A stretch of DNA of 64,000 nucleotides, taken from assembly GCA_030432295.1 (NCBI GenBank), contig JAUIHI010000019.1:1-64000 (forward strand), read 5' to 3'. Positions 2,693 through 58,018 of this stretch are shown here, in pieces; the stretch's first letter is position 1; every line of letters begins with the position of its first letter. The stretch is from Anaerolineae bacterium (GTDB taxonomy: Bacteria; Chloroflexota; Anaerolineae; Caldilineales; Caldilineaceae). The notes below the pieces were generated by a model that saw nothing but the letters and a program-made list of their open reading frames with translations, did no database searches and was not told where the DNA came from. Made by a program: the position numbers and the translations under genes.

Positions 2693-3097
2693 TTATCCAA
2701 AGCCACCCGATCCGCCCGTATCTTCCCCATCGGCCTCAGCTTCTTCCTCGTCGTCCTCTTCTGGCGGCGCATTGAATCGTTCCAGTTCGGCCTCGTATTC
2801 CTCCGCGGTCAACCAGCGACCGCCACTGACCTCCTGGCGCAGGAGCGCACGCTGGCTGTTGAACCAGAGTTCCACCTCCACTTGGGTGAAGCAGCGGTTG
2901 CGGCCCGAGCCCTGGATCACCTTGCGGGTGTAATAGGAGGCGTCGCCGTCGTCGCTGCCGCTCAGCGCGTTGAGGGTGTCCACTTCTGCGCTGAGTGGCT
3001 CGTTGCAGCGAGTGCTGAGGACATAAATCGCTAGATTGCGGCCACCGCTGGAGGGTCTGCCGGTAAAGAGAGATGCGAGTCGTTTGAGTAGGGACAT
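2693..3097 (-). CDS. Conserved hypothetical protein of the glycolytic gene group
   Basis: A 134-residue protein without signal peptide or membrane segment. Residues about 20-100 (NLAIYVLSTRCNEPL, DASYYTRKVIQGSGRNRCF, VELWF, GGRWLTAEEY) resemble a small conserved Chloroflexota protein I recall but cannot name. Two Cys residues (in TRCNEP and NRCFTQ) could form part of a metal or redox site. The last 30 residues are a strongly acidic Glu/Asp tail ending Gly-rich, probably disordered. ATG at 3097 has no clear Shine-Dalgarno. Its place between pgk and tpiA suggests co-transcription with glycolysis, not a proven role. Confidence 0.7.
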   Translation of the reverse strand: MSLLKRLASLFTGRPSSGGRNLAIYVLSTRCNEPLSAEVDTLNALSGSDDGDASYYTRKVIQGSGRNRCFTQVEVELWFNSQRALLRQEVSGGRWLTAEEYEAELERFNAPPEEDDEEEAEADGEDTGGSGGFG

Positions 3098-3122
3098 TTT
3101 GGGTATCAGGTGGTGGATGTTT

Positions 3123-3252
3123 GGTATTGGGTAGTGGCGCTGACGGAGGAGATGAGTTATCAGTGAACAGTCACCGGTGATCAGTCAGTCGTGTACACCT
3201 ACTGATCACTGATCACTGATAACGGGTTACTGTCCCACGAAATACCCAATAT
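3123..3252. repeat. Nested heptamer-periodic palindrome between pgk and the 134-aa gene
   Basis: Outer arms GTATTGGGTA and TACCCAATA enclose inner arms whose words repeat every 7 nt: GTTATCA/GTGAACA on the left and ACTGATC/ACTGATC on the right. It fills the spacer downstream of pgk. It may terminate or stabilise mRNA; it belongs to the 7-nt class seen at many spacers here. Confidence 0.75.
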
Positions 3253-4434
3253 CTAATCTCTATCATTCAACGCCGCCACACCGGGCAGCACTTTGCCTTC
3301 CAGAAATTCCAGGCTGGCACCGCCACCGGTGCTGACGTGGGAAATTTTGTCGTCCAGCCCGGCCTGACGCACCGCGGCCGCGCTGTCGCCGCCACCGATA
3401 ATTGTGGTCGCATTGACGAGGCCCGCCAGAATTTCAGCGATGGCAACGGTCCCTTTGGCAAAGGCGGGCATCTCAAAGACACCCATCGGCCCGTTCCAGA
3501 CGACTGTCTTGGCGCCGGCCAGCCGGTTGGCAAAGTGGGCAATCGACGCGGGGCCGATGTCCAGGGCCATCCAGCCCTCGGGGATGGCGTCGACGGGGAC
3601 GGTTTTGTGCTGGGCGTCGGCGGAGAAATCGTCCGCCACCACCAAGTCCACGGGCAGATGGAGCAGCCCCGCGCTTTTGTCGAGCAGAGAGCGAGCTGTC
3701 TCCAGCGCATCTTCCTCCACCAGACTCTTGCCGGTGGCGTAGCCCTGGGCACGCAGAAAGGTGTTTGCCATACCGCCGCCGATGAGAATGGCGTCTACCT
3801 TCTCCAGCAGCTTTTCGATGACCGCGATTTTGTCGCTGACTTTGGCTCCACCCAGAATCGCCACAAAGGGCCGTTCTGGTTCTTCCAGCGCGCCGCCCAG
3901 ATAGTCTAGTTCCTTTTGCATCAGGAAACCGGCCACTGCGGGCAGATGCTCGGCCACACCGGCGGTGCTGGCATGGGCGCGGTGCGCGCTGCCAAAGGCG
4001 TCGTTGACAAAGACATCGCCCAGTTTTGCCAACTGAGCCGACATCTCCGGGTTGTTCTTGGTTTCACGGGGATCAAAACGGGTATTCTCCAGCACCAGCA
4101 CGTCGCCGGGTTGCAGCGACGCTGCCGCTGCTTCCGCTTCCGGGCCGACGGTTTCACCCACAAACTGCACCGGGCGTCCCAGCAGAACGGCCAGATGTTC
4201 GGCGATGGGGTGCAAGGAATACTTGGGGTCCGGCCCGCCTTTGGGACGGCCCAGATGGCTCATCAGCACAAGCGATGTGCCATTTTCCAGGAGATAGCTC
4301 AAGGTGGGCAGGGCAGCCTGGATGCGGGCATCGTCGGTGATGGCCCCGCTGTCGTCCTGGGGCACATTGAAATCAACCCGCACCAGCGCCCGTTTGCCCG
4401 GCCAATTGATGTCACGAATGGTCTGTTTGCGCAT
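3253..4434 (-). CDS. pgk: Phosphoglycerate kinase
   Basis: Transfers phosphate between 1,3-bisphosphoglycerate and ADP in glycolysis. The substrate-binding N-domain motif LVRVDFNVP and the helix region ENTRFDPRE are present, as is the C-domain nucleotide site (GGAKVSDK, then GPMGVFE and GGGDSAAA). About 393 residues, normal length. A GTG at 4440 also opens the frame but lies inside the Shine-Dalgarno GGAGG; ATG at 4434, 5 nt after it, is the better start. It follows gap across a 7-nt periodic palindrome and is presumably co-transcribed with it. Confidence 0.97.
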
Positions 4435-52840: not shown

Positions 52841-52998
52841 AGCGCCGGTTGAGTAGCCTGCGGCTGTATGCAGGCGTATCGAAACCAAAGCGGGTCCACG
52901 AGATATCTACTGTACACCCGCTCCTCGGTTTCGATACGCCGCCAGACGTTGGTGGGAAGGTCGTTTGTTTTCCTGGCGGCTACTCAACCAGCGTCGCT
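52841..52998. repeat. REPIN-like element, copy A
   Basis: Two REP-like stem-loops in opposite orientation. The first runs GGTTGAGTAGCC...CGTATCGAAACC (52848-52887), then a spacer with AGCGGGT...ACCCGCT, then GGTTTCGATACG...CTACTCAACC (52927-52989). The inner end forms the stop codon of the GIY-YIG gene on the minus strand. The right half is nearly identical to that of copy C. Confidence 0.9.
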
Positions 52999-53289
52999 GA
53001 TCCGGTTCTTCTTCCACTTCTTGCGGGCCAGTTCTGGCAATAGCTCGTACTCTCCACGAATGAGCGCCTCCCGTTTCTGACGACGCCAGCCCTGTACCTG
53101 CTTTTTAGCACTGAATGCAGCGTTAATGCTATCGAATTCGGCGCTGAACACCAGTTTCACTGGACGACGGTGTGCGGTATATTTCGCTCCATTGCCCTGA
53201 TTGTGTTCCCAAAGACGACGTTCGATGTCTACCGTTGAACCCACGTAGTAGGAACCGTCGGCACATTCGAGAATGTACATCCAGGCCAT
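52984..53289 (-). CDS. GIY-YIG nuclease-family protein nested in REPIN-like repeats, catalytic Glu replaced
   Basis: 101 residues from ATG 53289, which has GGAG 7 nt upstream; an open frame to 53403 is repeat DNA. Motifs: YILECADGSYYVGSTVDIERRLWEHNQG (the YIL and YVG pair at 5-17, Arg24/25), KYTAHRRPVKLVF, and AFSAKKQVQGWRRQKREALI. In relatives I know, the last motif reads xEKQVQGW with the catalytic Glu; here position 62 is Lys (codon AAA, one change from GAA), so nuclease activity is probably lost. The last codons, SDAG and stop, are read from repeat copy A. Flanked by copies A and B. Likely the former mover of these repeats. Confidence 0.9.
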   Translation of the reverse strand: MAWMYILECADGSYYVGSTVDIERRLWEHNQGNGAKYTAHRRPVKLVFSAEFDSINAAFSAKKQVQGWRRQKREALIRGEYELLPELARKKWKKNRISDAG

Positions 53290-53318
53290 AACTGTTCTCC
53301 CGACAGCGCCAAAAGTCC

Positions 53319-53482
53319 AGCGCCGGTTGAGTAGGAGTCGCTTCAGAAAACGGGGTGCTTTTCCCCGCCGTATCGAAACCAAAGCAGGTGGACACGAAAT
53401 CATCCGCAGACCCGTTCGCTTGATTTCGATACGGCTCGAAGACGTAGAATCTTTTGGATTCTGATGCTACTCAATCAGCGCT
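53319..53482. repeat. REPIN-like element, copy B (diverged)
   Basis: Starts CAGCGCCGGTTGAGTAGG, has CCGTATCGAAACC and, in reverse, GATTTCGATACGG...CTACTCAATCAGCGCT. Same plan as copies A and C but with different loop sequences. It ends 36 nt before copy C, and abuts the start of the GIY-YIG gene. Together A, B and C explain the gene-free DNA between 53290 and 53661. Confidence 0.85.
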
Positions 53483-53518
53483 CACTGATCTTCGAACTGT
53501 ATCTTACGATGCGAGATA

Positions 53519-53676
53519 AGCGCCGGTTGAGTAGCCCGGAGTCTACGGAGGGCGTATCGAAACCAAAGCGGGTCTGCAAGATATCTTCTTTACACCCGCT
53601 CCTGGGTTTCGATACGCCGCCAGACGTTGGTGGGAAGGTCGTTTGTTCTTCTGGCGGCTACTCAACCGGCGTCGCT
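53519..53676. repeat. REPIN-like element, copy C
   Basis: About 90% identical to copy A over 158 bp (CGCCGGTTGAGTAGCC...GGCGTATCGAAACC and GGTTTCGATACGCC...GGCTACTCAACC). Its inner end supplies the stop codon of the membrane protein gene at 53662, in the same frame as copy A supplies that of the GIY-YIG gene. Confidence 0.9.
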
Positions 53677-54780
53677 GGTCTGGTGGTCCGCTGTCCGCGG
53701 TCTGCCGTCGTCCGTCTCCATTGCCGCGAAGTGTTCCAGCAGGTAGCGATGGACGAAGATGTAGCCGCCGCCCACCTTTTGCAGGAAGTGGAGTTCTTCG
53801 GCGGCGTAGTCGAGGAAGGGGGCCAGACGCCAGGGCAGGGAGCCGGCCCGCCAGAGCAGAAAACGCACAATGAAGTGCTGGATCACGTCCAGGCCGCCGT
53901 ACCAGAGGCCGATATAGGTACCACTCAACACGCAGTAGATTAGTCCGTTCGTCAAATTGCTAAACAGCAACACAACTAGACCAACAAGCAAGCCGCCGAT
54001 GCTTCCCATCAAAAACGAGGAGTATAGATATGATTGATTTCCTTGAATGGGAATATCCGATAAATGTAGCTTGGTAAGCTCAATGCTGATCAGCATTATG
54101 ATGCTTAGAAATACGATTGAGGCTGCAATCGCAAACTTTATCTCATTGGTGAAAAACATAATCAAAATAATCATGGGCCCAGTAACCAACAACATAATAA
54201 TAAACATCGCTGCATATGCGTGGATTGTCATAAAAGAGCGAATGACTCTATCAAAATCAATATTGATTGTTCTCAATATCTTAATTTCATTGTATTGATC
54301 CCGCGCTTCAAATCGAAGCAACCAAATGATTACTAGAATGTATCCAAAAAAGACGTTCCCATCAGAACCAAGTACCCTAGCAACTACCAAAGTTATGGAA
54401 AGAACAAGTACTTGAAGAACCATCCAAAGAGATCGGAGGAAGTCGATTTGACTAGGTGTTCGGAACGAATACCGCTGGAACAAGAATATAGAGTCCACTG
54501 CTCCGGCAATCATTCCATAGGTCAACCCATAGGTCAATCCAAAATCAAGTGACCAGAAAGTTGAGCTTATAGTTAATCCAACTAGACTTGCCCAAATCAA
54601 ACGTGAAAGTACTGAATATGCAATGTACTGCATCGGTGAAGACAACCAACTCGGCTGAAGTTTTTCAATCAGAAAAATCGTCTGGTCGTGTTCTGTCATC
54701 CTCCGCGCCAGGAACGACAGCCAGTGGGTGACCTGTTCTTCGCTATAAGGGAGCACAGTCTGGCGGTTTTGCTGGCTCAT
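53662..54780 (-). CDS. Multi-pass membrane partner of the CHAT-NACHT protein
   Basis: 372 residues. The N-terminal PYSEEQVTHWLSFLARRMTEHDQTIFLIEKLQPSWL and the C-terminal LDYAAEELHFLQKVGGGYIFVHRYLLEHFA are segments that, in the Chloroflexota and cyanobacterial NACHT proteins I know, occur on the same chain as the NACHT domain. Between them lie about eight membrane helices. Here that part is a separate gene: its ATG overlaps the upstream stop (ATGA) and has GGAGG 5 nt upstream, favouring coupled translation over a damaged gene. The core is markedly AT-rich. The last residues come from a 7-nt-periodic repeat and REPIN copy C. Confidence 0.82.
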   Translation of the reverse strand: MSQQNRQTVLPYSEEQVTHWLSFLARRMTEHDQTIFLIEKLQPSWLSSPMQYIAYSVLSRLIWASLVGLTISSTFWSLDFGLTYGLTYGMIAGAVDSIFLFQRYSFRTPSQIDFLRSLWMVLQVLVLSITLVVARVLGSDGNVFFGYILVIIWLLRFEARDQYNEIKILRTINIDFDRVIRSFMTIHAYAAMFIIMLLVTGPMIILIMFFTNEIKFAIAASIVFLSIIMLISIELTKLHLSDIPIQGNQSYLYSSFLMGSIGGLLVGLVVLLFSNLTNGLIYCVLSGTYIGLWYGGLDVIQHFIVRFLLWRAGSLPWRLAPFLDYAAEELHFLQKVGGGYIFVHRYLLEHFAAMETDDGRPRTADHQTSDAG

Positions 54781-56921
54781 TCGCCCCTCCCCAGCCCGGC
54801 GAGGCGGAACATCCGGTCCCCGTAGGCGCTCATCAGTTGTTTGCGGCGGGCGGCCGCGGTGGCCGCGCTTTCCTGCAGCAACTGCTCGGCGGGGATGTCC
54901 TGATAAGCCCGCACCATCAGACTGAGCATCAGGGGCGAGCGGGCTTCGATGCGCAGGGCCGAGTCTCGCTGCAACAGGGCGCGCAGCCCGGCCAGCCGCT
55001 CGCCCAGACCGGTCAGGTAGCTCTGCACCTGTTCGTCGACCAGGGGCAGCAGACGCACGGCCGCGTTGAGGCTGAGACGCACGGGCAGGTCGATGTACTC
55101 GGACAGACGGCAGCAGACCACCGCGCCCACCAGCCCGGCCCCCTGGCTGAAGCGGGTGATGGCCTCCACACAGGCGGCGCGGCGGGGTGAGGCCAGTTCG
55201 TCCAGCCCATCCAGCAGGGGCAGCACCCGACTCTCGGCCAGCCAGAGCCGGCCAATTTTGCGGGGAATCTGGTAGCGGCTGCTCAGTTCGTCCACCAGCC
55301 AGGTGTCGAGTTCGCTGTGGGGTTCCACCCAGGAGGAGAGGTTGAAGATCACCGGCACAGGCCGCCGGGGATCGGCCTCGGCCCGCAGCAGCAGCCCCTT
55401 GGCCAGTTCCAGCAGGGAAGTCGTCTTGCCCGACCCCGGCTCGCCCAGCACCAGCAACGAGCCGCCCTCCTCGTCGTAGAGATCGGCCAGACTCTGCTCC
55501 GGGGGTAGGGGCTGGCTATCCCCGTCGGGCCGTTCCACCACTTCGCCCCAGGCGCCGGACCCAAAGGGGCTGTCCACAGCGCCGCTCATACGGGCCATGC
55601 CCAGGTCGAGAAGAATGGCCTGAAAGAGGGACTTTTCCAGCACCCCTTCGATCCAATACTGGCGCACTTTGCGCAGAAGAATCTCCAGCCCCCGGCGTTC
55701 CTCGCCCGCCGCGGCAGAGACGGGTGGGGGCGGCGCTGTGGCGGGTGGGGGTGGGGGCGCAGCCGTTTGGCCGCGGAAGATGGCCCCGGCCAGGTCCACC
55801 CGAAAGAGCGCGCCCTCCTCGGCGCGCAGATGCAGCACTGGCGTGGCCCACTCGGAGCGGTCGGCCAGGGCCATACTGATGGCGAGACGGGCCTCCTGCA
55901 CGGATTCGTCCACGCCCAGCCCCCGGGCCAAGCCGTCGTAGAAAGCCCGTGAAAATTCGATGGCAGCCCGGTCGCTGATGGCGTATTGCATGGAGACGAC
56001 CGCGGGGATGCCCCGGCGACTCAGCACCGCGCCTGTGCTGGAAAAGAGATTGTCGGCGCTGGCCCTGGCCCCTTCGCAGGCGTTAAGCACGGCCAGACGC
56101 AAAGACGGGTGGGCGTCGAAGAGGCGGCCCAGTTGGGTGGCGGAGAGAAAGTGGCTGTCGCCGCTGTTCTCGTCCACCAGCGCGATGCGTCCTTCGCCCT
56201 CTGTCGGGTCAAAGTCGCCGTGGCCGATGAAGTGGAAGATATGCCACTCCCCGGCCTGAAGAGTCTGGTTCAGGTCGCGCCAACTCTGCCCCTCCACCCA
56301 GGACAGTTCGACGGAGCGGGCATCCAGCAGGTGGTCGATGGCCTGCACCATCCGCTGCTTCTCCTGCTCTGCGTCGAGCGCGGGCAGGTCGGTGGGGCTG
56401 GCGATCATCCCCAGAATGCGGATGGGCGGCGGGATGGTCAAGGGCGGGGTGGGGCGGCCCATCTCCAGATAGCGGGTGACGGGCGTTTCGCGCAGGAGGT
56501 TCACGTGGTCGCCGGCATCGGCGTCGTAGAGGAATTCCCAGGGCAGGAGGGCCAGTTCTGGGGCCTCCACGCGCAGACGCACCCGCAGCCGTTTTCCCTC
56601 GGCCCGGGCCATTTCCAGGCTGCTGCGGTAGCGGCTGCGCACTTCGCCGGGGAAAAGGGCTTCGAAGAGCGCTCCGCCCACTTCTCTGGCCAGGGCGGCT
56701 TCGCTGGTATCGACGGGCGCTGATGTGGCGGTTTTTGTGCCGCGCAGGTTCGTCCCAATCCCGCGCACATTTTCCAGGGTTTGCAACCCGACCAGAAAAG
56801 GCTCGTCAAAGGCCAGTTGCAGGCTGGCGATGGCCTCGCCCGCGGGCGCGCGGGTCACACGCACGGGGTAGCCGTGGGCGTCTGGGGTGTCGATGCGCAG
56901 GTCGAAGTTGAGGTATTCCAT
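54777..56921 (-). CDS. CHAT-protease / NACHT-NTPase (STAND) protein
   Basis: 714 residues from ATG 56921 (a TTG at 56969 is possible; neither start has a Shine-Dalgarno). An N-terminal domain (1-150) is followed by a caspase-like CHAT domain with His234 (FHFIGHG) and Cys282 (VLNACEGA), a Pro-rich linker, a small helical segment, and NACHT with Walker A LGEPGSGKT (about 493-500) and Walker B LLDGLDE (about 569-575). It ends in the helical region after NACHT. STAND NTPases with CHAT effectors act in bacterial immunity and cell death; this one probably needs the following membrane protein. Bracketed by two nuclease-repeat units. Confidence 0.92.
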   Translation of the reverse strand: MEYLNFDLRIDTPDAHGYPVRVTRAPAGEAIASLQLAFDEPFLVGLQTLENVRGIGTNLRGTKTATSAPVDTSEAALAREVGGALFEALFPGEVRSRYRSSLEMARAEGKRLRVRLRVEAPELALLPWEFLYDADAGDHVNLLRETPVTRYLEMGRPTPPLTIPPPIRILGMIASPTDLPALDAEQEKQRMVQAIDHLLDARSVELSWVEGQSWRDLNQTLQAGEWHIFHFIGHGDFDPTEGEGRIALVDENSGDSHFLSATQLGRLFDAHPSLRLAVLNACEGARASADNLFSSTGAVLSRRGIPAVVSMQYAISDRAAIEFSRAFYDGLARGLGVDESVQEARLAISMALADRSEWATPVLHLRAEEGALFRVDLAGAIFRGQTAAPPPPPATAPPPPVSAAAGEERRGLEILLRKVRQYWIEGVLEKSLFQAILLDLGMARMSGAVDSPFGSGAWGEVVERPDGDSQPLPPEQSLADLYDEEGGSLLVLGEPGSGKTTSLLELAKGLLLRAEADPRRPVPVIFNLSSWVEPHSELDTWLVDELSSRYQIPRKIGRLWLAESRVLPLLDGLDELASPRRAACVEAITRFSQGAGLVGAVVCCRLSEYIDLPVRLSLNAAVRLLPLVDEQVQSYLTGLGERLAGLRALLQRDSALRIEARSPLMLSLMVRAYQDIPAEQLLQESAATAAARRKQLMSAYGDRMFRLAGLGRGE

Positions 56922-57004
56922 CGCGGGCCGGTGGCGGGTGGATGACAGGTAGCTGTCATTATGGGGCAAAGGGGGATTTGGCGCAAGGGTAGATTTGTGG
57001 CGTT

Positions 57005-57337
57005 CCCCACCACCCCCTGGCTGCCGGTGGGAAGGTCGGATGTTTGATGGTTGCCCCCTCCTCCCCCAGAGGTGGAGATGTTTCGTTTGTGGTGTTGGTC
57101 GCTCTGGGAGAGGAGGGGGTTAGGGGTGATTGGGGATCGTACACGTGTGTGTTTTTGTTGTTGACGTAATCCGTTCGTTGGCGCGATAATCGGGTCGACG
57201 AGTTCTACCCCACCGCCCCTTAGCTGTTGGTGGGAAGTTCGGATGTTTGAGGGACGCCCCCTCCTCCCCCAGCGCACGCGACATTCCCGACGAACCAGCA
57301 TTCTTGCTGGGGGAGGAGGGGGCAGGGGGTGGTGGGG
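57005..57337. repeat. Composite G/C-rich palindromic element upstream of the DUF559 gene
   Basis: Ends are CCCCACCACCCCCT (57005-57018) and AGGGGGTGGTGGGG (57324-57337). Inside lie CCCCCTCCTCCCCCAG and its complement, the core GGTGGGAAGGTCG, and a second such unit starting at 57208, separated by TTGTTGACG...GGCGCG...ACGAGTTC. It spans the whole gene-free gap before the DUF559 gene, whose Shine-Dalgarno follows directly. Confidence 0.88.
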
Positions 57338-57363
57338 GCCACGCACCAGATAGGAGGAAACAT

Positions 57364-57756
57364 ATGCGCGGACGACATACGATTCGGGAGACATCGCCGG
57401 AACTGCGCCAACGGGCCAAAGAACTGCGTAAACGGATGACACCTGCCGAACGAACGCTGTGGAGTCGCTTGCGCGGTCATCAGTTGGGTGGATTGAAAAT
57501 ACGGCGACAGCATCCGCTGGGCCGGTTCATTGCAGACTTCTACTGTACCGATGCGCGGCTGGTACTGGAAGTGGACGGCGGCATCCACGACCGGCTGGTG
57601 GAGCGGGATGCGGCTCGGACTGAATATCTGGAGCAGCGGGGATTTGAGGTTATGCGCATTCGCAATGAGGAAATCGAGCAGAATATCGAGAAAGTGCTGG
57701 CGGAGATTCTGGCTGTGTGTGAGGAGAGGATGTCCCCACCACCCCCTAGCCAGTGA
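57364..57756 (+). CDS. DUF559 endonuclease-like protein between palindromic elements
   Basis: 130 residues from ATG 57364 with AGGAGG 6 nt upstream; the open frame back to 57247 is repeat DNA. The DUF559/Vsr-like fold shows RAKELRKRMTPAERTLWSRLRG, KIRRQHPLGRFIADFY (Asp58), VLEVDGGIHD (Glu69, Asp71) and GFEVMRIRNEEI, the expected PD-(D/E)XK-related acids, so an active nuclease is plausible. Its last residues MSPPPPSQ and stop are encoded by the left end of the second element. Role may be movement of these repeats; that is inference. Confidence 0.9.
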   Translation: MRGRHTIRETSPELRQRAKELRKRMTPAERTLWSRLRGHQLGGLKIRRQHPLGRFIADFYCTDARLVLEVDGGIHDRLVERDAARTEYLEQRGFEVMRIRNEEIEQNIEKVLAEILAVCEERMSPPPPSQ

Positions 57757-58018
57757 AGGGAAGGTCGCTTGTTTGAGGGGCGCCCCCACTCACCCAGGGA
57801 TGGCGTTGGCGTGTAGGCTGTATTGGTCGCACTGGGAGAGGTGGGGAGACAGAACGATTGGTGGCGTCCGAACGCACATATTGTCATTGTTGACGAGAAA
57901 CCATTCTTTGGCGCGCCAATCAGCCCGACGGGTTCCCCCTCCTCTCCCAGCCCACACAACACCCCAAACGAACCAACACCCCAGCTGGGGGAGGAGGGGG
58001 TCAGGGGGTGGTGGGGGC
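57734..58018. repeat. Composite G/C-rich palindromic element downstream of the DUF559 gene
   Basis: Begins CCCCACCACCCCCTAGCC, overlapping the end of the DUF559 gene, and ends AGGGGGTGGTGGGG (58001-58018 region). The interior matches the first element: GGGAAGGTCG core, TTGTTGACGA, TTTGGCGCG, CCGACGGGTTC. It fills the gap to 58110. Confidence 0.87.

Follow-up and report, generated by a model that had tools for sequence, protein, structure and literature searches.

BoxC repeats, also called PIT elements or triplex motifs (TM), have been known since the 1990s as repeats without a partner gene. For the Rickettsia palindromic elements, we know of no associated nuclease either; these are palindromic repeats that lie in frame in protein genes (PMC2635572). 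In REPtrons, a nuclease-type gene lies between genome-scattered palindromes, some copies of which are found inside genes; the genes, known as RAYTs, are reported to encode HUH tyrosine transposases, and the palindromes, the REPs, to have GTAG ends (PMC3733652). As reported in PMC4666352, repeats of the BoxC type occur in E. coli and more than 260 genomes, while the E. coli form, TM(ECO), has 23 copies in strain MG1655, five close inverted pairs among them, and is linked to instability. The same 2015 study reports that the single strand of the E. coli motif forms a triplex in vitro, describes a search for mobility genes near the repeats that found none, and reviews earlier tests in which the repeats had neither promoter nor terminator activity (PMC4666352). 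In Enterobacter sp. 638, 100 copies of CCCTCTCCC..GGGAGAGGG have been reported (PMC2869309). In the openly accessible literature on DUF559, on the repeats and on nuclease-palindrome elements, we found no report of an association between DUF559 and BoxC.

The window analysed here is the whole stretch of 64,000 nucleotides from an Anaerolineae bacterium. Direct reading of the sequence revealed two palindromic elements, A and B, each a pair of hairpin units, that flank a 130-codon DUF559 gene on the forward strand. The features of this unit are as follows:

57005 to 57337, forward: element A, the left flank, 333 bp, two hairpin units in tandem with outer arms at either end
57005 to 57018, forward: outer pyrimidine arm CCCCACCACCCCCT of element A, from the arm alignment
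57054 to 57119, forward: hairpin 1 of element A (CCCCCTCCTCCCCCAG ... CTCTGGGAGAGGAGGGGG), 94% complementary
57136 to 57207, forward: inner spacer of element A, TTGTTGACG..GGCGCG..GAGTTC, common to 57887-57934 of element B
57256 to 57323, forward: hairpin 2 of element A (GCCCCCTCCTCCCCCAGC ... GCTGGGGGAGGAGGGGGC), 18 nt, 100% complementary
57324 to 57337, forward: outer purine arm AGGGGGTGGTGGGG of element A, from the arm alignment
57352 to 57357, forward: probable ribosome-binding site AGGAGG, 6 bases 5' of the ATG, read directly
57364 to 57756, forward: DUF559 nuclease gene (PD-(D/E)XK / Vsr-like fold), 130 codons and a stop, from the PF04480 match, invariant residues and fold matches
57734 to 58016, forward: element B, the right flank, 283 bp, two hairpin units, starting within the last codons of the gene
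57783 to 57846, forward: hairpin 1 of element B (CCCCCACTCACCCAGG ... CTGGGAGAGGTGGGG), from the direct-repeat comparison
57935 to 58000, forward: hairpin 2 of element B (CCCCCTCCTCTCCCAGC ... GCTGGGGGAGGAGGGGG), 94% complementary
58003 to 58016, forward: outer purine arm AGGGGGTGGTGGGG of element B, the right end of the unit, from the arm alignment

The outer arms CCCCACCACCCCCT and AGGGGGTGGTGGGG are 100% complementary when 57005-57019 is set against either 57323-57337 or 58002-58016, as are the outer arms of element B itself (57734-57747 and 58003-58016). The inner arms CCCCCTCCTCCCCCAG and CTGGGGGAGGAGGGGG recur at 57054, 57257, 57307, 57935 (one mismatch) and 57985, and the spacer TTGTTGACG..GGCGCG..GTTC is common to both elements. 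Within element A the left-end unit occurs twice (57005 and 57208), 203 bp apart and 86% alike over 65 nt. The gene starts with the ATG at 57364, 3' of the AGGAGG, and its end (..SPPPPSQ and the stop) overlaps the start of element B. Thus, the two paired palindromic elements with common ends, inner arms and spacer that the initial annotation had described were confirmed, with lengths of 333 and 283 bp, and so was its placing of the Shine-Dalgarno sequence just after the first element and of the gene end inside the second. The repeat version in the window, with its CCCCCTCCTCCCCCAG arms and units of about 130 nt, is longer than the known BoxC type. Directly upstream of the unit lies the gene of a large CHAT-NACHT protein (54777-56969, reverse strand), a type frequent in signalling and defence.

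A Pfam profile search assigned the gene product to PF04480 (DUF559) with 134 bits (cut-off 20.6) and an E-value of 2e-39, and the invariant positions of DUF559 (D58, E69, D71 and H75, the D, E-x-D, H pattern) are all present in it. Its nearest DUF559 relatives are mostly from Chloroflexota, many of them Anaerolineae. The best fold match of an AlphaFold model (built from nine sequences, pLDDT 81) was a DUF559 protein from Neisseria (3hrl), followed by the homing endonuclease I-Bth0305I (3r3p; TM-score 0.81 by target length, E 6.5e-4; sequence profile E 5e-5), with Vsr (1vsr) matching more weakly. The window protein is therefore predicted by the model to have a homing-endonuclease fold. PF03852 (Vsr) was absent among its Pfam matches at E up to 0.001, and no Vsr match was found in the genome of the window. 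The initial annotation had named the gene DUF559 and described its product as a Vsr-like nuclease; it is a DUF559 protein rather than Vsr proper, within the same broad fold superfamily, and Vsr genes also differ in having no repeats. YcjD, the DUF559 protein of E. coli, was treated in a 2005 study as an already identified member of the PD-(D/E)XK group (PMC1189080). The Caulobacter protein VsrA, which has a DUF559 domain, is reported to cause DNA damage in vivo in the absence of ScmA and to set off a DNA-damage response in cells without one cytosine methylase, and has been proposed to have a role in mismatch repair (PMC12907096). In Caulobacter and Brevundimonas, DUF559 relatives lie between genes read as gatA and gatB, and hairpins are present there.

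The repeats are not confined to the window. The window segment gave 71 BLASTN matches in its own 6.7-Mb genome, itself included, and the inner arm, with one mismatch allowed, has 37 copies against 8 for a reversed control; for a BoxC-like pattern the counts were 21 and 1. This excess is not due to chance. The genome-wide search for the end motifs that the initial annotation had called for thus found a dispersed family, at about 20 loci as single copies or arrays, in which a complete copy reads GCCCTCACC[AG]CCCCCTAGC ... hairpin 1 ... TCGTCATCGAC..CCATCGACAGACTCC ... hairpin 2 ... CCGGGGGTGAGGGC. Only three DUF559 matches were found in the genome, two strong (contigs C12, of which the window is a part, and C56) and a distant third with 37 bits; both strong genes sit between repeat elements. 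The hits of an RNA family search were all weak, fell short of the curated thresholds and are put down to chance.

Comparison with a sister species showed arrays of different length at the same place (1.19 kb against 237 bp; 825 bp against one 262-bp element). Tandem arrays of the repeats (L018, L025, L012 and L022 in the source genome) are thus unequal in length between sister species, which suggests local amplification. Where the intergenic region orthologous to that of the window was readable in sister species, it showed no DUF559 gene: in G005 it contains a single hairpin, in others unrelated sequence. In one of the orthologous places (L044, G004:C48, reverse complement of 2270-2560) lies a different palindromic insertion, ACCTTCCGGGAAGGGGTCA..TGACCCCTTCCCGGAAGGT. 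Within the genus, orthologous loci were also compared for the second DUF559 unit and for eight more places with repeats. None provided a clean empty site with readable junctions; what they showed was arrays of unequal length, intergenic DNA peculiar to one species, and remnants in decay.

The same arrangement was found far beyond Chloroflexota. Our set of DUF559 loci comprised 80 from a collection with one genome per species and 29 more from a sample of 301 Chloroflexota genomes, with examples in Chloroflexota, Cyanobacteriota, Bacteroidota, Planctomycetota, Armatimonadota, Latescibacterota, Pseudomonadota and others. By eye, most loci have CCTCACCCC-CCCCTCTCC-hairpin 5' of the gene and hairpin-GGAGAGGGG-GGGGTGAGG 3' of it, with lineage variants of the end motifs such as GACCTATCCCCC/GGGGGATAGGTC, CCTCATCCCC and CCTAACCCC; the left and right ends of one locus carry common variants, for example GACCTATCCCCC/GGGGGATAGGTC. 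When pyrimidine-first hairpins of any sequence were counted, their density was 5-7 per kb within 100 bp of a DUF559 gene, compared with some 0.1 per kb at a distance of 1-3 kb. Of 90 loci, 76 had a hairpin no more than 400 bp away on one side or both, and 42 had one on both; among the 47 loci with long flanks, 24 had hairpins on both sides within 400 bp and none had both at 2 kb. The left and right flanks matched as inverted repeats (score at least 40) in 42% of comparisons within a locus and 2.9% of those across loci (p=1e-23), and outer ends could be defined for 39 units of 441-1013 bp. DUF559 units thus have terminal inverted repeats. Vsr genes from the same genomes served as a control: hairpins were found on both sides in 0 of 30 and on either side in 1 of 30, with no matched ends. 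The remaining 14 of the 90 DUF559 loci had no repeats nearby, which counts against our reading of the units as mobile elements; by inspection, the P. aeruginosa copy had none.

Neither of the usual marks of an insertion sequence or MITE, a transposase and a target-site duplication, was found in these units: none of those read showed a transposase gene, and in the 39 units the flanking direct repeats showed no excess over shuffled pairs. A target sequence common to the 39 units was not found either. DUF559 records are few in plasmid (43) and phage (2) collections, so that plasmids and phages are not the main carriers. On a plasmid of Sphingomonas parapaucimobilis (L190), a DUF559 gene at 2986-3396 with a hairpin upstream splits the sufB/sufC iron-sulfur assembly operon. 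In five Anaerolineales loci (L073, L076, L092, L129 and L208), a DUF559 unit with GACCTATCCCC/GGGGGATAGGTC-type ends lies at seemingly one place, just 5' of a formate-dehydrogenase-like gene.

Gene and repeat also go together at the level of whole genomes. Of the 301 Chloroflexota genomes, 93 had a strong DUF559 gene and 159 had none; the pattern GGAGAGGGN{2,8}GGGTGAGG was present with at least three copies in 69 of the former and 39 of the latter (odds ratio 8.8, p=1e-14). At the family level the numbers were 31 of 40 and 7 of 34, the excess stayed within families holding both kinds of genome (z=3.8), and the reversed control pattern was nearly absent from the sample. The initial annotation had proposed a test of co-occurrence with DUF559 genes, and the answer is positive, from the genome counts as from the flanking hairpins and the Vsr control (0 of 30 with both sides). 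It had also named repeats that are common without DUF559 genes as an observation that would speak against its reading; here the outcome is mixed, with those 39 of 159 genomes reaching three copies. Two congeneric genomes without a DUF559 gene hold 345 and 413 copies, and hundreds of copies in such genomes indicate that the repeats can outlive a resident gene or spread without one.

The link to BoxC came from E. coli K-12, in which ycjD is annotated as DUF559 and CCCCTCGCCCCTCTGGGGAGAGGGTTAGGGTGAGGGG, a match to the BoxC/PIT/TM(ECO) element, lies downstream of it. The repeats of the source genome have the features of this group, namely three G/C-rich pyrimidine or purine blocks, a hairpin core and many copies. 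The block structure, pyrimidine-pyrimidine-purine or pyrimidine-purine-purine, is that of the units described here, the core CCCTCACCC..CCCTCTCCC..GGGAGAGGG is common to both, and both are dispersed, often in close inverted pairs, and tied to instability. The difference is that BoxC repeats are known as orphans only, whereas those described here enclose one specific nuclease gene and can be part of proteins. A BoxC-type repeat also lies downstream of DUF559 genes in Klebsiella and Lelliottia, and in Sinorhizobium full elements lie on both sides. The recurrence of the pairing across many phyla, E. coli included, suggests that a very small mobile element with a nuclease gene gave rise to the BoxC repeats, as its ends and its remains.

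Among 5426 E. coli genomes, ycjD was present in 3365 and the BoxC query in 5100. Strains without ycjD were considered as simple empty sites and rejected, since the eefRABCD operon occupies the place; tkt-ypfG was rejected as an empty site of BoxC since another repeat stands there. Between pstA and pstB (L264 compared with L268 and L271), BoxC is a 92-bp indel polymorphism flanked by 8-bp direct repeats, ACACGGTT, and may be a gain or a loss. Some E. coli copies of BoxC have a T-rich stretch next to them on the 3' side.

In several host genes the hairpins and DUF559 are read in frame as part of a larger protein. Such units were found in genes read as HsdR (L036) and HsdS (L145), in NPPF-type DNA methylases (L087, L147 and L176) and another methylase type (L159 and L162), and in the methionine synthase MetH (L179 and L209). 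In the inserts, which consist of hairpins and DUF559, direct reading recognised no splicing domain. A targeted search in one family found one MetH linker in a natural series of states: empty, with about 20 residues; with hairpins alone, 41-44 residues (L252 and L262); and with hairpins-DUF559-hairpins, 197-238 residues. The linker of L262 resembles that of L250 minus the gene. The full state requires at least seven changes on well-supported branches of the MetH tree, and all nine of the nine MetH-borne nucleases form one clade (100/98). The host MetH tree strongly pairs L209 with L243 and L179 with L250, whereas neither pairing is accepted by the nuclease DNA (AU p 0.017 and 0.005), whose tree is short and lacks strongly supported branches; conversely, the host DNA rejects one grouping of the nuclease protein tree (p 5e-6), a grouping picked after that tree was seen. 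Presence and absence at a fixed site, with a history unlike that of the host gene, is the signature of homing, that is, of a site-specific gene moving between host alleles, and this refers to MetH and not to the window copy. In six other loci (L241, L253 and L256-L259), the same linker holds other repeat-like in-frame inserts (..GAGASPAPT.., QVDTYTSTQ..), and the linker may therefore be a general landing place for repeats. As for the empty sites and target duplications that the initial annotation had hoped for, the MetH series supplied the former, the genus none that was clean, and the latter were not in excess in the 39 units.

Taken together, an architecture that recurs across phyla but not around Vsr genes, the co-occurrence of gene and repeat, the in-frame insertions, and the site-specific gain and loss in MetH with its tree conflict make it probable that the unit is a selfish homing-type nuclease element with BoxC/PIT/triplex-motif hairpin ends, and that the solo repeats are its remnants or miniatures. 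The window would then hold one full copy, a DUF559 nuclease gene with a hairpin end on either side. The nuclease probably cuts a target site, and repair of the break would copy the unit into the cut site, allowing a homing-type spread that needs neither a transposase nor a target duplication; the hairpin ends would probably have a role in either recognition or repair. We infer the cutting, the exact target, the repair-driven copying and any action of the nuclease on the hairpins. Recombination between the two ends would drop the gene and leave a solo BoxC, and solo paired hairpins may alternatively be miniatures moved in trans. Such leftovers would explain, without proving it, why repeats occur in genomes without the gene. 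Since the ends are readable in frame, units can survive inside protein genes as well. The absence of target duplications disfavours classical transposition, and a homing-like mode fits better. The composite mobile unit of the initial annotation therefore stands as an arrangement, and as a moving one in MetH; a transposon in the usual sense is not supported. A point against our reading is that the gene is flanked on either side by a complete paired element instead of a simple end, both in the window and in MetH.

That last point fits the main rival, which likewise puts nuclease and repeat in one system: the repeats would be structural elements that are independent of the DUF559 gene and predate it, and the gene a homing parasite, for which the hairpins are a harmless landing site or target and not its own ends. 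The nuclease would recognise the hairpin, and its gene would insert next to copies already there or between them. The abundance of repeats in some genomes without the gene and the gene-free arrays of the source genome also agree with it. We nevertheless regard it as unlikely, given the many units with one matched inverted end per side and the lineage-specific variants common to the ends of one locus. It could also be that another enzyme moves the repeats and that DUF559 is one of many cargo genes of a repeat-bounded cassette, since repeats that are everywhere could bracket genes by chance or recombination. This is improbable in view of the strong specificity for DUF559 in unrelated phyla and none for Vsr, the small size of the units, the lack of a transposase gene in those read, and the site-specific DUF559 clade in MetH. 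Finally, a VsrA-like host repair nuclease could be surrounded by repeats that act as transcription terminators or as insulators, with nothing mobile at all. G/C-rich hairpins, the T-rich stretch after some E. coli copies and the role proposed for VsrA would suit this explanation, but hairpins also lie inside reading frames, Vsr genes go without repeats, the presence in MetH is patchy and in conflict with the host tree, and the earlier tests reviewed in PMC4666352 saw no promoter or terminator activity; we therefore consider it very improbable.

Our preferred reading, a homing-type element with hairpin ends, sets the units apart from the known systems. With homing endonuclease genes of the EDxHD/Vsr-like type (I-Bth0305I) they share a related nuclease fold and, in MetH, fixed-site presence and absence, one nuclease clade and conflict with the host tree; they differ in that no intron or intein was recognised around DUF559, the insert keeps the reading frame, the ends are hairpin inverted repeats, and remnants are dispersed through genomes. 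Unlike REPtrons, they carry DUF559 rather than an HUH tyrosine transposase between the palindromes and have CCTCACCCC-like ends. Compared by eye, their sequence is unrelated to that of the Rickettsia palindromic elements.

The window also contains a gene read as a GIY-YIG nuclease (52984-53403, reverse strand) between copies of a different repeat:

52843 to 52938: GIY-YIG-associated repeat, CGCCGGTTGAGTAG..CGTATCGAAAC
53321 to 53671: GIY-YIG-associated repeat, CGCCGGTTGAGTAG..CGTATCGAAAC

This gene and its relatives had matching inverted flanks in 7 of 27 loci (26%, against 2% across loci), with several repeat families, for example TGTCATTCCGAGCG..GAGGAATCT. We tentatively propose, as a possibility short of a probable conclusion, that small orphan nucleases with family-specific palindromic repeats (DUF559 with BoxC, GIY-YIG with other repeats) form an unrecognised class of mobile elements, which would spread through homing-type repair with no need of a transposase, settle in frame within proteins and be the source of several classical orphan repeats. 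If the GIY-YIG parallel holds, elements that combine a nuclease with palindromes may form a class of general occurrence. DUF559, a large family of nucleases so far without an assigned function, gains a candidate role, and it appears that a selfish gene can persist inside host proteins by in-frame read-through, apparently without splicing. With YcjD of E. coli K-12 as the partner nuclease, the origin, movement and instability of BoxC become directly testable.
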